Origin: Nitrosarchaeum sp.
Lineage (GTDB): Archaea; Thermoproteota; Nitrososphaeria; Nitrososphaerales; Nitrosopumilaceae
NCBI GenBank assembly: GCA_023265135.1
Contig: JAHFUM010000003.1
Location: 62,001-126,000 of the forward strand
Length of the DNA stretch: 64,000 nt
Reading direction: 5' to 3'
Part shown: positions 21,793-45,231 of the stretch, piece after piece
Position numbering within the stretch: position 1 is the first letter of the stretch
How the letters are laid out: each line of letters begins with the position of its first letter
Made by a program: the position numbers and the translations under genes
Notes under the pieces: generated by a model
What the model was told of the DNA's origin: nothing
The model's input: only the letters and a program-made list of their open reading frames with translations
The model's database searches: none

Positions 21793-23379
21793 ATGTCAGA
21801 GCAGGAAATATTTGGGAAAGGAACTTGGATAGACAAGTTAGCTCATGAATTACTAGAGCGTGAAAAATCTTTAGATAGGAGTTTAGATTTGTTACGAGTT
21901 GAAAGTGGACTAGGAGCTTCAGGAGTACCACATATTGGAAGTTTAGGAGATGCAGTTAGAGCATATGGAGTAAAACTTGCACTAGAAAATTTCGGATACA
22001 AGTCAGAATTAATTGCATACTCTGACGATTTAGATGGATTAAGAAAGATTCCAGAAGGATTCCCTGATTCTTTAGAAGAACATTTGGGAAAACCCGTTTC
22101 ATTAATTCCAGATCCATATGGATGTCATGAGTCATATGGAATGCATATGAGTAGTATTCTTTTAGATGGTCTTGACAAAATGGGAATAAAATATGAATTT
22201 AGAAGAGCACAAGACACATACAAGAAAGGATTACTAAAAGATCAAATTCACACAATTCTGCAAAATAGTTCAAAGATAGGTGATAAGATTTCAGAACTTG
22301 TAGGACAAGATAAATTTCAAAAGTTTCTTCCATATTTTCCAGTTTGTTCCAATTGCAATAGACTCTACACAGCAGAAGCATTCGAGTATTTACCAGAAGA
22401 GAAGAAAGTAAGATACAAGTGCCATGATGCAGAAATTGGCTCAAAAATGATGAAAGGCTGTGGGCATAATGGAGAAGCAGACATTACCAAAGATTTGGGA
22501 AAATTAGCATGGAAGGTAGAATTTGCTGCAAGATGGGCAGCATTTGATATCAGATTCGAAGCATATGGAAAAGACATCATGGATTCTGTAAAGGTAAACG
22601 ATTGGGTATCAGATGAAATTTTAAATTTTCCTCATCCTCATCATGTCAAATATGAAATGTTTTTGGATAAAGGTGGGAAAAAAATTTCAAAATCATTAGG
22701 CAATGTTGTTACAGGACAAAAATGGATGGAGTTTGGAAGTCCAAAATCAATACTATTACTTCTGTACAAAAGAATTACAGGTGCAAGAGAATTAGGATTT
22801 GAAGACATTCCATCATTAATGAACGAATACAATGAATTAGAAGACATATTTTTTGGAAAAATCAAAGTAGACAATCAAGCCAAGCTAATAAAATCAAAAG
22901 GACTTTATGAATACGTGAATCTGCTAGAATCTCCAAAGGAGCCAAGCATTCACATCAATTACCGGCTATTAGTAGAATTATGCAAAATGTTCAAAGAAGA
23001 TAGAACTGAAAGAGTTATGAAAAAATTGTTAGATTACGGAGTAATCAAAAATCCAGATCCTCAAATAGAAAAATTAATAGAGTTGGCAGGAAATTTTGCA
23101 GATCAGTTTGATCAACAAGAAAAAGTAGAAATAGACATAAATGAATCAGCAAAAAAAATTCTGAAATATCTAGTAGATACACTTTATGCAGAAGAGGAAC
23201 CAGAAGATATTCAAAATACAATATATCAAATTGCAAAATCAAACGGGGTAGAACCAAAGGATTTCTTTAAAATATTATATCAAATAATATTGGGGACATC
23301 AAGAGGTCCTAAAATTGGACCACTTATCTCAGATATCGGAAGAAAACAAGTTGCAAAAACAATTTCAGAATACATCTAA
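21793..23379 (+). CDS. lysK: Class I lysyl-tRNA synthetase
   Basis: The 528-aa protein is the archaeal class I LysRS: HIGH-type motif PHIGSL (46-51), YSDDLDGLRKIP, a zinc region CSNCNRLY, and KMSKS-type KISKS near residue 298. It charges tRNA-Lys with lysine. It follows elp3 after 3 bases, so co-transcription is likely. The C-terminal helical bundle is present up to ISEYI and the length is typical. The alternative class II enzyme is unrelated. Confidence 0.97.
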   Translation: MSEQEIFGKGTWIDKLAHELLEREKSLDRSLDLLRVESGLGASGVPHIGSLGDAVRAYGVKLALENFGYKSELIAYSDDLDGLRKIPEGFPDSLEEHLGKPVSLIPDPYGCHESYGMHMSSILLDGLDKMGIKYEFRRAQDTYKKGLLKDQIHTILQNSSKIGDKISELVGQDKFQKFLPYFPVCSNCNRLYTAEAFEYLPEEKKVRYKCHDAEIGSKMMKGCGHNGEADITKDLGKLAWKVEFAARWAAFDIRFEAYGKDIMDSVKVNDWVSDEILNFPHPHHVKYEMFLDKGGKKISKSLGNVVTGQKWMEFGSPKSILLLLYKRITGARELGFEDIPSLMNEYNELEDIFFGKIKVDNQAKLIKSKGLYEYVNLLESPKEPSIHINYRLLVELCKMFKEDRTERVMKKLLDYGVIKNPDPQIEKLIELAGNFADQFDQQEKVEIDINESAKKILKYLVDTLYAEEEPEDIQNTIYQIAKSNGVEPKDFFKILYQIILGTSRGPKIGPLISDIGRKQVAKTISEYI

Positions 23380-41171: not shown

Positions 41172-42432
41172 AGTAGAAAAATCAAAAGTGTCAGGACGTA
41201 TCACATGTCCAGCAAATAAAAGTTATTCACACAGAGCAATTTTTCTTGCATCACTTGCAGGCAATAATAGCAAGATAGGCAATGTATTATTTTCCGCGGA
41301 TACTGTTGCAACAATTGATGCGTGTAGAAATTTTGGAGCCGAAATTGAAGAATCAAAATCATCAATAATTGTCAGAAAACCTATAAATTTTAACAAAATC
41401 GTGCCTGAAATTGATGCAAAAAATTCAGGCACCACAATTAGAATTTCATCAGGAATCGCTAGTCTCTTTACAAAAGAAATCACGCTAACAGGAGATTCGA
41501 GCCTTAAAAAAAGACCCATGCAACCATTATTAGATGCGCTAGAAAGCATAGGAGCTAAATGTAGTTCAACAAACGGGATGCCACCCATCAGAATTACTGG
41601 AAGAATTTTGGGTGGAGATGTTTCAATTCCAGGAAACTTTTCAAGTCAGTTTATTTCTGCATTGTTAATCTGCGCACCATTAACAGAAAAAGGAATTAAT
41701 TTATCCATAGAAGGGAATTTAGTTTCAAAACCATATTTGGATGCAACTGTTGCAACGATGAGAGTTTTCGGAGTTACAGTAAAAACATTAATTCCATACA
41801 AAAAATACAGTATTGTACCTCAAGTGTACAAACAATCTACATTCATAGTCCCAATAGATTTTTCAAGTTTAGCACTGCTTCTTTCAGCATCAGTATTAAA
41901 TGGAGAAAATTTGATAATTCATGGGAAGATTGGAAACTTACCTCAGGGAGATGAAGTCTTCATAGATATCCTAGAACAATTAGGAGTGAAGGTTTCAATA
42001 AATAAAGATCAGATAACAATTAAATCGCCAGAAAAACTCAGTGGGGGGCGATTTGATTTAAGTAACTCACCAGACTTACTTCCACCACTAGCAATTCTGG
42101 CATTGAAAACAACAAATTCAATTGAAATCACAAATGTGAAACATGCGAGATTGAAAGAGACAGATCGAATTTCGATTTTAGCTAGAGAGTTAGTCAAAAT
42201 TGGAATTAGAGTACAAGAAAATGATGACGGGTTAATTTTAGAGCCACCAAAGGAATTAAGAGGAGCTGTATTAAATTCTGAAAACGATCATAGATTATTC
42301 ATGGCATTTTGCATATCTGGAATGTATGTAGGCAATTGTACTGTAACAGATCATGAATCAGTGGCGGTATCATACCCAGATTTTATCAATGAGATGAATA
42401 AACTTGGTGCAAAAATTCTAATACAAAAATAA
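41161..42432 (+). CDS. aroA: 5-enolpyruvylshikimate-3-phosphate synthase
   Basis: The 423-aa protein has CPANKSYSHRAIFLASLAG, NSGTTIRISSG, a SLKKRPMQPLLDAL segment, GNFSSQFISALLI, and the late KESDR-type KHARLKETDRI and NDHRLFMAF. It adds an enolpyruvyl group to shikimate 3-phosphate. Length and motif order are normal. The next aro gene is separated by a 326-base region with a predicted folded RNA and a new promoter. Confidence 0.96.
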   Translation: MNCKVEKSKVSGRITCPANKSYSHRAIFLASLAGNNSKIGNVLFSADTVATIDACRNFGAEIEESKSSIIVRKPINFNKIVPEIDAKNSGTTIRISSGIASLFTKEITLTGDSSLKKRPMQPLLDALESIGAKCSSTNGMPPIRITGRILGGDVSIPGNFSSQFISALLICAPLTEKGINLSIEGNLVSKPYLDATVATMRVFGVTVKTLIPYKKYSIVPQVYKQSTFIVPIDFSSLALLLSASVLNGENLIIHGKIGNLPQGDEVFIDILEQLGVKVSINKDQITIKSPEKLSGGRFDLSNSPDLLPPLAILALKTTNSIEITNVKHARLKETDRISILARELVKIGIRVQENDDGLILEPPKELRGAVLNSENDHRLFMAFCISGMYVGNCTVTDHESVAVSYPDFINEMNKLGAKILIQK

Positions 42433-42465
42433 CCAATTCTAAAAATTAACTAAAATTATTAAAAG

Positions 42466-42549
42466 GCGCAACCCTGTATAGGGTGAAAAGCATTCTCCTC
42501 ACCCACAACGCCTATGCGAAGATAACATGTATTTTTCACAGGGCCGCGC
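42466..42549 (+). ncRNA. Candidate structured RNA (three-way junction) between aroA and aroC
   Basis: By hand, GCGC-AA-CCCTGT (42466-42477) pairs with ACAGGG-CC-GCGC (42538-42549), giving a 10-pair stem with one symmetric internal loop. Inside are GGGTGA/TCACCC (42481-42486 with 42499-42504) and CGC-CTAT-GCG (42509-42518). The segment is G+C-rich in an A+T-rich gap. A TCTAAAAATTA box lies about 26 bases upstream. It could be an independent small RNA or a leader element for aroC. No Rfam family was recognised. The rest of the gap (42550-42758) holds no gene; it carries a likely aroC TATA box near 42729-42739. Confidence 0.55.
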
Positions 42550-42758
42550 AATTCATTTGTTAGAATTTGCACGTTTTTGCATATTTAGTACACGTTATCA
42601 TTATATTTAAGAATTTTTTGTAATTATTACAACTAATTTAAATTAAATTTATAATTTTTAAGAAAAGATGAAAAATATTAAAAATGAGTATAAAATCTAT
42701 GAAAGTTTTCAAAACTTTACATGATGAGGAATTATAAGCATCAATTTACTTTCAAAGT

Positions 42759-43856
42759 ATGTTGCCGGGAAGTTCAATTGGTCAGCGTCTTGTGTTAACT
42801 AGTTTTGGTGAAAGTCATGGTAAATCGATAGGAGCTGTTTTAGACGGTTGCCCGGCAGGATTAGAAATTGATGAAAAAGAAATTCAAAAAATGCTAGATC
42901 TTAGAAAACCAGGTCAATCACTTATTTCTACACAACGTAAAGAAGGAGATATTGTAGAAATTATCTCAGGAGTGTTTAGAGGACATACAACTGGAGCACC
43001 AATAACAATGATAATTCAGAACAGTGATCAAAAATCAACGGATTATGAAAACTTGAAAACAAAGCTTAGGCCAGGACATTCAGATTATCCTGCGATGGTA
43101 AAATACAATCATTTTAATGATTACAGAGGAGGTGGCAGATTTTCAGGAAGGTTAACTGCAACTCATGTGATGGGTGGTGCAATTGCAAGAAAACTGTTAA
43201 AAGTTACATTGGGTGTTGAAACAAATTCATTTACAGCACAAATTGGAAAAATAAAAATGAAAAACAAATTTGATGAAAAAATGATCAATTCAATTTATAA
43301 AAATGAAGTGAGATGTCCTGAAGAAAATACTGCAAAAAAAATGAAAGACTCTATACTAGATGCCAGAAAAAAAGGAGATTCGCTTGGAGGCATAATTGAA
43401 TCAATCACTACAAATGTACCAGTTGGAATAGGAGAGCCAATTTTTGGTTCATTAGAATCTGATTTGAGTAAGGCAATATTTTCAATTCCATCTGTGAAAG
43501 GAGTGGAATTTGGTTCTGGTTTTCAAGGTTCTGAAATGTATGGTTCAGAAAATAATGATCTTTACACCATAAAAAAAGGAAAGATAGTTACAAAAACCAA
43601 CAATTCAGGAGGAATTTTAGGTGGAATATCAAACGGCATGCCAATAACTATAAGAATTGCATTCAAACCTGCCTCATCAATAGCACAGAAACAAAATACG
43701 GTAGACATTAAGACTAAAAAAATTACAACATTATTAGTAAAAGGAAGACACGATCCATGCGTAGTTCCAAGAGCTCCTCCAGTAGTAGACTCGCTAGTAT
43801 CTCTGACTTTGGCAGACCATGCTCTTTTAGCTGGTGCAATTAAGCCTGTATTATAG
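42759..43856 (+). CDS. aroC: Chorismate synthase
   Basis: The 365-aa protein has SFGESHGKSIGAVLDGCPAG at the start, SDYPAMVKYNHFNDYRGGGRFSGR, GSGFQGSEMYGS, GGILGGISNGMPI and RHDPCVVPRAPPVVDS. It makes chorismate from EPSP using reduced flavin. An ATTATAAG box lies 20-30 bases upstream, consistent with its own leaderless promoter after the structured RNA. Confidence 0.97.
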   Translation: MLPGSSIGQRLVLTSFGESHGKSIGAVLDGCPAGLEIDEKEIQKMLDLRKPGQSLISTQRKEGDIVEIISGVFRGHTTGAPITMIIQNSDQKSTDYENLKTKLRPGHSDYPAMVKYNHFNDYRGGGRFSGRLTATHVMGGAIARKLLKVTLGVETNSFTAQIGKIKMKNKFDEKMINSIYKNEVRCPEENTAKKMKDSILDARKKGDSLGGIIESITTNVPVGIGEPIFGSLESDLSKAIFSIPSVKGVEFGSGFQGSEMYGSENNDLYTIKKGKIVTKTNNSGGILGGISNGMPITIRIAFKPASSIAQKQNTVDIKTKKITTLLVKGRHDPCVVPRAPPVVDSLVSLTLADHALLAGAIKPVL

Positions 43857-43860
43857 AGAC

Positions 43861-45231
43861 ATGTCTGATATTAACCATCTTCGTAATAGAATGGATGAGA
43901 TCACTATTGAGATGATCAAAATGCTCAAAACCAGAACAGATATTTCTAAAGAGATAGGGGAGATCAAAAAAAATATTGGAAAAGGTATCACAGATGAAAC
44001 ACGAGAAGGTAATCTACGAACGAAAGTAATTTCATTGTGTAATGAATTAAATTTTGACGAATCAATAGCAACAAAATTTTTAAATTTTTTACTTAATGAA
44101 TCAATTAAAGTACAATCAGATAATAAACCGACACATCTATCAATTTTTCTAAAAGCAAAATCAATGGAACTGGAGGGCAAGAAAATGATCCACATGGAAG
44201 TGGGTGAGCTGGATTTTTTACCACCACAAATTGTTAAAAAATCGCTTAGTGAAGTTTTTGATAAAGGATTTTTAAAATATGGTCAAGCTAAAGGCATGCC
44301 ATCATTTAGAGATGCACTTGCAAAATATTCATCTAAAAAATTTGGTGCAAATATTTCAGAAGAGTGTATAATAGTTAGTCCAGGTGCACGATTTTCAATT
44401 TTCACAGCAATTAGTACATTGTTAAATCCTGGAGATGAAATAATAGTCATAGAACCAGCATGGCCTGCATACAAGGATTGTGCATTGAATTCAGGAATTA
44501 AAGTTAGAACTATCGCTACCACGTTAGAAGGAAAATGGGAACCTACAATTGAACAGATTGAAAAAGTAATCAATGCAAATACAAAAATGATTGTATTGAA
44601 CTATCCAAATAATCCAACAGGGAAAATTCTTCCTGAAAAATTACAAGATGGAATTGTGAATTTAGCAATTAAAAATAACCTATACATTCTCAGTGATGAA
44701 ATTTATTCTGAATATGCATTTAAAAAATGGAAAAGCATACTTTGTTACAACTACGATAAAAGCATTGTAACTCAATCATTTTCAAAATCTCATGCAATGA
44801 CAGGATTTAGAATAGGATATGCAATAGCAACCCCCAAAATCATAGATATAATGTCAAAATTAGAAGCTCTATGTCTCACAAATGTGTCTGAGCCTATTCA
44901 ATACATTGCCATGAAAGCATTAGAAGCAGACATATCAAACAATACTAATACAGTACAAACTAGACTTAAGGTATTGACTGAAAAGGCTAAGGAAATGAAT
45001 TTGGATTTTGTAGTGCCTGATGGAGCAATGTATATTTTTGCCCGTGTTAATCAAGAGGGGTTTAATGGAGTACAATTTGCAAACAATCTTTTAGAGAAAG
45101 GATTGGCAATAGCACCTGGAGAGGGTTTTGGAGAATTTAAGAATTTCATTAGAATATCTGCTTGTCAGAACGAAAAAACACTAATGGAAGGAATGAATAT
45201 ACTTAGCAATATGATGAGGGATGAGCAATGA
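43861..45231 (+). CDS. Fused chorismate mutase / PLP aminotransferase
   Basis: The 456-aa protein has an AroQ-type chorismate mutase domain (about 1-85: LRNRMDEITIEMIKMLKTR, then ISKEIGEIKKNIG) joined to a fold-type I aminotransferase (about 95-456) with VGELDFLPP, NYPNNPTGKIL, and TQSFSKSHAMTGFRIGY, where the PLP lysine lies. The fusion pairs prephenate formation with transamination of an aromatic 2-oxo acid or prephenate. The frame opens upstream at 43834, but the ATG at 43861 starts the mutase domain and follows aroC by 4 bases. It overlaps tyrA by 4 bases. Confidence 0.9.
   Translation: MSDINHLRNRMDEITIEMIKMLKTRTDISKEIGEIKKNIGKGITDETREGNLRTKVISLCNELNFDESIATKFLNFLLNESIKVQSDNKPTHLSIFLKAKSMELEGKKMIHMEVGELDFLPPQIVKKSLSEVFDKGFLKYGQAKGMPSFRDALAKYSSKKFGANISEECIIVSPGARFSIFTAISTLLNPGDEIIVIEPAWPAYKDCALNSGIKVRTIATTLEGKWEPTIEQIEKVINANTKMIVLNYPNNPTGKILPEKLQDGIVNLAIKNNLYILSDEIYSEYAFKKWKSILCYNYDKSIVTQSFSKSHAMTGFRIGYAIATPKIIDIMSKLEALCLTNVSEPIQYIAMKALEADISNNTNTVQTRLKVLTEKAKEMNLDFVVPDGAMYIFARVNQEGFNGVQFANNLLEKGLAIAPGEGFGEFKNFIRISACQNEKTLMEGMNILSNMMRDEQ

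Follow-up and report, generated by a model that had tools for sequence, protein, structure and literature searches.

What does the gap between aroA and aroC encode in this archaeal genome, and why does a nine-codon open reading frame persist there whose start, stop and length are kept but whose peptide is not? The small RNAs of ammonia-oxidizing archaea, which rank with the most abundant microbes, are little known. The locus lies in a stretch of 64,000 nt (the window), where Pfam confirms the aroA and aroC assignments as EPSP synthase and chorismate synthase. Our answer to the first question, of which we are highly confident, is that the gap holds an autonomous small RNA gene, about 120-135 nt long and encoded on the minus strand, which founds an undescribed archaeal RNA family. 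For the second question, we weigh several explanations that differ in what a ribosome would do at the 5' end of this RNA. In Table 1 we report the features of the element.

Table 1. Features of the minus-strand RNA element in the window.
Feature	Position	Strand	Remarks
TATA box TTAAATA	42604-42610	-	28 nt 5' of the A in the nano-ORF start codon
Type I RNA, full covariance-model match (G000:C16:104462-104584)	42462..42584 (about)	-	alignments A4, A8
Leaderless nano-ORF ATG CAA AAA CGT GCA AAT TCT AAC AAA TGA (MQKRANSNK)	42553..42582	-	start predicted to coincide with the transcription start
Closing stem P1, 5' strand GCGCGGCCCUG	42539..42549	-	11 pairs; 99.2% of cells paired; double changes in 5 pairs (66 distinct sequences)
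Variable inner hairpin	42508..42519	-	double changes across relatives in 4/4 pairs
Conserved inner hairpin GGGUGAGGAG-AAUG-CUUUUCACCC	42481..42504	-	inner three pairs invariant in type I
Closing stem P1, 3' strand CAGGGUUGCGC	42466..42476	-	pairs with GCGCGGCCCUG
T-rich 3' flank, presumed termination region (inferred)	42430..42464	-	read directly from the sequence

A folded RNA on the minus strand

There is indeed a folded RNA in the gap, encoded on the minus strand. A first-pass annotation had drawn it on the plus strand of the G+C-rich island at 42466-42549, as a 10-pair closing stem (4+6) with a symmetric 2x2 internal loop and inner hairpins. These features can indeed be found there, and the plus strand folds to -27 kcal/mol (z -3.28, with 0 of 200 shuffles equally good), but the minus-strand fold is stronger, at -48.4 kcal/mol over 161 nt (z -4.27). 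The 2x2 loop is an artifact of reading the wrong strand: its two A.C mismatches are G.U wobbles on the minus strand, where the stem is continuous with 11 pairs, and in relatives too the supposed loop shows A.C when the plus strand is read and G.U when the minus strand is. For the same 15 relatives, the RNAalifold consensus is -37.7 kcal/mol on the minus strand versus -17.9 kcal/mol on the plus strand, about half, and we reject the plus-strand structure on that account. The proposed interval does contain the stem but stops short of the 5' domain, which continues to about 42584. We also reject coding in the RNA body, as a frame opened at the AUG of the conserved loop is soon closed by a stop in the L016 copy, and single-base indels vary the body.

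Covariation is strong in every alignment, with 95-98% of the pairs kept and double changes in 9-18 pairs. In A4, an alignment of the minus strand, 98.1% of cells are paired, and 9 pairs have double changes versus 3.3 in shuffles, with 3 as the maximum in slid controls. For type I (A8, 66 distinct sequences) there are double changes in 13 pairs and 121 cells, for type II (A9) in 10 pairs, and for newly collected sequences (A10) in 18 of 22 pairs. The first-pass annotation had named compensatory changes in the stem as the check for its proposal, and the double changes across relatives bear this out. Its suggestion of a small RNA is supported by these many compensatory changes together with the lack of an Rfam match.

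Rfam 15 has no family above the gathering score for the element, permissive E-values included, and the below-threshold chance matches miss it, in agreement with the earlier judgement that no known family fits. ARAGORN reports no tmRNA and no tRNA-like domain in the window or the related loci. The element shares with archaeal RNase P RNA and SRP RNA that it is a structured archaeal RNA, but both are located elsewhere in the same genome and it matches neither. No C/D boxes, ACA box or guide pocket are evident by eye in the alignments, no Rfam guide family matches on the element, and for the single-stranded segment AAAATACATGTTATCTTCG we find no convincing second site as an antisense target. Marine psRNAs were reportedly the subject of Shi et al. 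in 2009. The open-access literature on small RNAs of Nitrosopumilus and Thaumarchaeota does not describe the element. A Red Sea transcription start site paper names a euryarchaeal RNA, Tan1 (PMC5069720), and passages of the N. limnia genome paper refer to a single noncoding RNA that is conserved, leaving its identity unstated (PMC3043068).

A family with two types

The element belongs to an RNA family with two types: type I, the one in the window, is usually in the aroA-aroC gap, and type II is at other loci. Members were collected with covariance models, type I first and then a type II model. Type I is found in genera g1, g4, g12 and g18, and in g9 (Nitrosotalea). The strong matches in the first four genera are in the aroA-aroC gap in all 30 loci examined, a few of which were fetched as stretches that include aroA but not aroC. 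In Nitrosotalea, type I is at another locus; the L016 copy adjoins a Sir2 gene and has no aro gene. Weak second matches in the same genomes are type II paralogs at unrelated loci. They have in common with type I a 5' domain, a closing stem, a hairpin of the form AGAG-loop-CUCU and the spacing of the promoter; a second stem, GCAGAAC/GUUCUGC, is added. In each member, a TATA promoter of its own is followed by a start codon at the predicted 5' end and an ORF of nine codons, then by a GC-rich closing stem with two or three stems inside it, and finally by a 3' flank rich in T.

The conserved TATA box, like the RNA, is on the minus strand. Relative to the model start, the motif T[TA]A[AT]ATA begins at offset -26 or -27, these top offsets accounting for 32/39 type I and 29/35 type II cases, and the box sits at the same upstream place in nearly all family members. 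From its position, transcription is predicted to start at a start codon.

There are usually one to four copies per genome, about three in most. Under the type II model, the window's genome has three, and three family matches also occur in G118, apparently the genome of N. maritimus SCM1: one type I (488158-488280) and two type II (690169-690300 and 22396-22530), all on the plus strand, with 5' ends predicted at the AUG. The same model has matches in 203 of 400 genomes of the class, and all of those listed fall within the window's taxonomic family. In a more sensitive search of 22 genomes from the order's other families, there is one non-significant match only (E 0.33), and neither the class nor the order search gives a convincing homolog beyond the family. 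The element is an RNA across one family of ammonia-oxidizing archaea, relatives of Nitrosopumilus and Nitrosotalea; public records give the relatives sharing it the names Nitrosarchaeum, Nitrosopumilus and Nitrosotalea. In two genomes, type I has been mostly lost by apparent deletions in the aroA-aroC gap that leave remnants (L018:1440-1700 in G004 and L017:1310-1636 in G006), and because of these deletions type I is probably not essential. G004 retains two type II copies.

The arrangement of copies is variable. One genome (G271) has tandem members about 300 nt apart (L224:101-222 and 410-530). In three Nitrosotalea genomes (L068, L069, L070), type I and a type II copy are about 8-10 kb apart. 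One type II copy of the window's genome (L083:1501-1635) is near genes for TFIIB (transcription factor B) and a short-chain dehydrogenase.

A nine-codon reading frame at the predicted 5' end

A short ORF begins at the predicted 5' end in all 158 distinct full-length members, a count to be read with a mild bias toward members with a start codon, as the collecting model includes the AUG columns. It has exactly nine codons in 150 of them and 8-12 codons in the other 8. The starts are ATG (152), GTG (5) and TTG (1), and the stops TAA (94), TGA (42) and TAG (22). By type, all 64 full-length distinct type I sequences start with ATG or GTG and reach an in-frame stop as their tenth codon; in type II, ATG is found in 43/43 and nine codons in 39/43. 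Another 52 sequences, mostly from genera outside model building, all have a start codon, and their ORFs are eight or nine codons long; L231 was scored by eye with a one-codon shift. These sequences use all three stop codons, and the constant length is absent from the other two frames.

Start, length and stop of the nano-ORF are kept, and its peptide is not conserved. Taking the edges of a minimum spanning tree as events, in place of a full phylogenetic model, we count 29 changes of stop codon and 4 of start codon, every one of them class-preserving (log10 P -9.2 for kappa 2 and -5.4 for kappa 4), no internal stop arising (P about 1e-3), and 193 nonsynonymous to 45 synonymous changes in the peptide, where 176:55 are expected. 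The peptides diverge widely, for example MQKRANSNK, MPKDIIPID and MLVQCRMMD. The spacing from the stop to P1 is mostly 3-4 nt. In type II the nano-ORF lies within an RNA hairpin (mean z -3.0), so part of its constraint is at the RNA level; in type I this hairpin is weak (-0.6).

Why keep a reading frame and not its peptide

Our best explanation overall, which in our estimate stands an even chance, is a small RNA in which translating the leaderless nano-ORF would matter in its own right and not for the peptide. A ribosome would load on the leaderless start codon at the 5' end of the RNA, translate nine codons while melting the 5' hairpin, and terminate against the closing stem. Its loading or traffic would then determine how the structured body folds, how stable it is or how it associates with ribosomes, and that body would act in trans. 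This mechanism is more tentative than the explanation as a whole, and a shade more tentative again is a class of RNAs with a fixed-length leaderless nano-ORF kept solely for the act of translation, in which ribosome loading and release would gate a trans-acting structured RNA of ammonia-oxidizing archaea. The strand, the covarying structure, the promoter motif, the family and the keeping of the ORF are observed here; transcription, use of the AUG by ribosomes and action of the body in trans are all predictions from sequence. Since the ORF persists with neither a conserved peptide nor a consistently placed downstream gene, translation would most likely serve to load a ribosome, time it or release it at the base of the closing stem. 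If true, this would be regulation or targeting through translating a leaderless mini-ORF.

The simplest rival has a modest chance of being right: the RNA is a structured non-coding RNA, and the nano-ORF is a safety device whose early stop sheds invading ribosomes before the closing stem. The stop mostly 3-4 nt short of P1 and the unconserved peptide are as this predicts, but all members keep the start codon, and losing the AUG would be an easy solution were translation merely unwanted. The position of the start codon at the predicted 5' end would also fit an RNA directed to ribosomes, as would the fixed ORF length, the structured body and the wide distribution in the family, the RNA serving in rescue, hibernation or translation regulation and binding ribosomes or subunits via the leaderless start codon. 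We consider this rather unlikely, given that neither a tmRNA or tRNA-like domain nor an Rfam match is found. tmRNA itself likewise combines a structured RNA with an internal short ORF of some ten codons, and the absence of that domain sets the element apart from it. If the RNA were an mRNA for a functional peptide of nine residues, followed by a structured 3' UTR, this would account for a leaderless ORF that is conserved and has valid start and stop codons throughout the family, but it is improbable, as nonsynonymous changes are no rarer than expected and the peptides vary so much. The dual-function small RNAs SgrS, RNAIII and Spot 42 encode functional peptides. The element resembles them as an independent small RNA, here predicted, with a short ORF and a structured regulatory part, and differs in an unconserved peptide and a leaderless ORF nearly fixed at nine codons. 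We reject membership in that group from the same ratio of peptide changes.

The remaining alternatives involve the neighbouring genes. Type I and aroA run towards each other, and many of the other members face their downstream neighbour in the same way, as would be expected of an antisense or convergent transcript controlling the aroA 3' end. The neighbours vary by locus while the RNA sequence and fold are kept, however, and some type II copies (L075, L078, L082) have a co-directional downstream gene, which makes this explanation more improbable still than the peptide mRNA. A short ORF just before a paired RNA structure near a T-tract also recalls the leader-peptide attenuators trpL and pheL. 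We reject an attenuator of this kind, as the element has no consistently placed downstream gene and no run of regulatory codons; its neighbours are mostly convergent and its codons variable.

Least credible of all is the plus-strand aroC leader, attenuator or riboswitch that the first-pass annotation had offered. It draws on the aroA-aroC position in most type I genomes, but the strand is wrong and the RNA would be transcribed away from aroC. The synteny is broken in Nitrosotalea, where the right flank with its minus-strand TATA is kept at L016 even though aroC is absent, and the paralogs are at unrelated loci. Elsewhere in the window, at 43834-45231 on the plus strand, a chorismate mutase domain is fused to an aminotransferase (PF01817 + PF00155).
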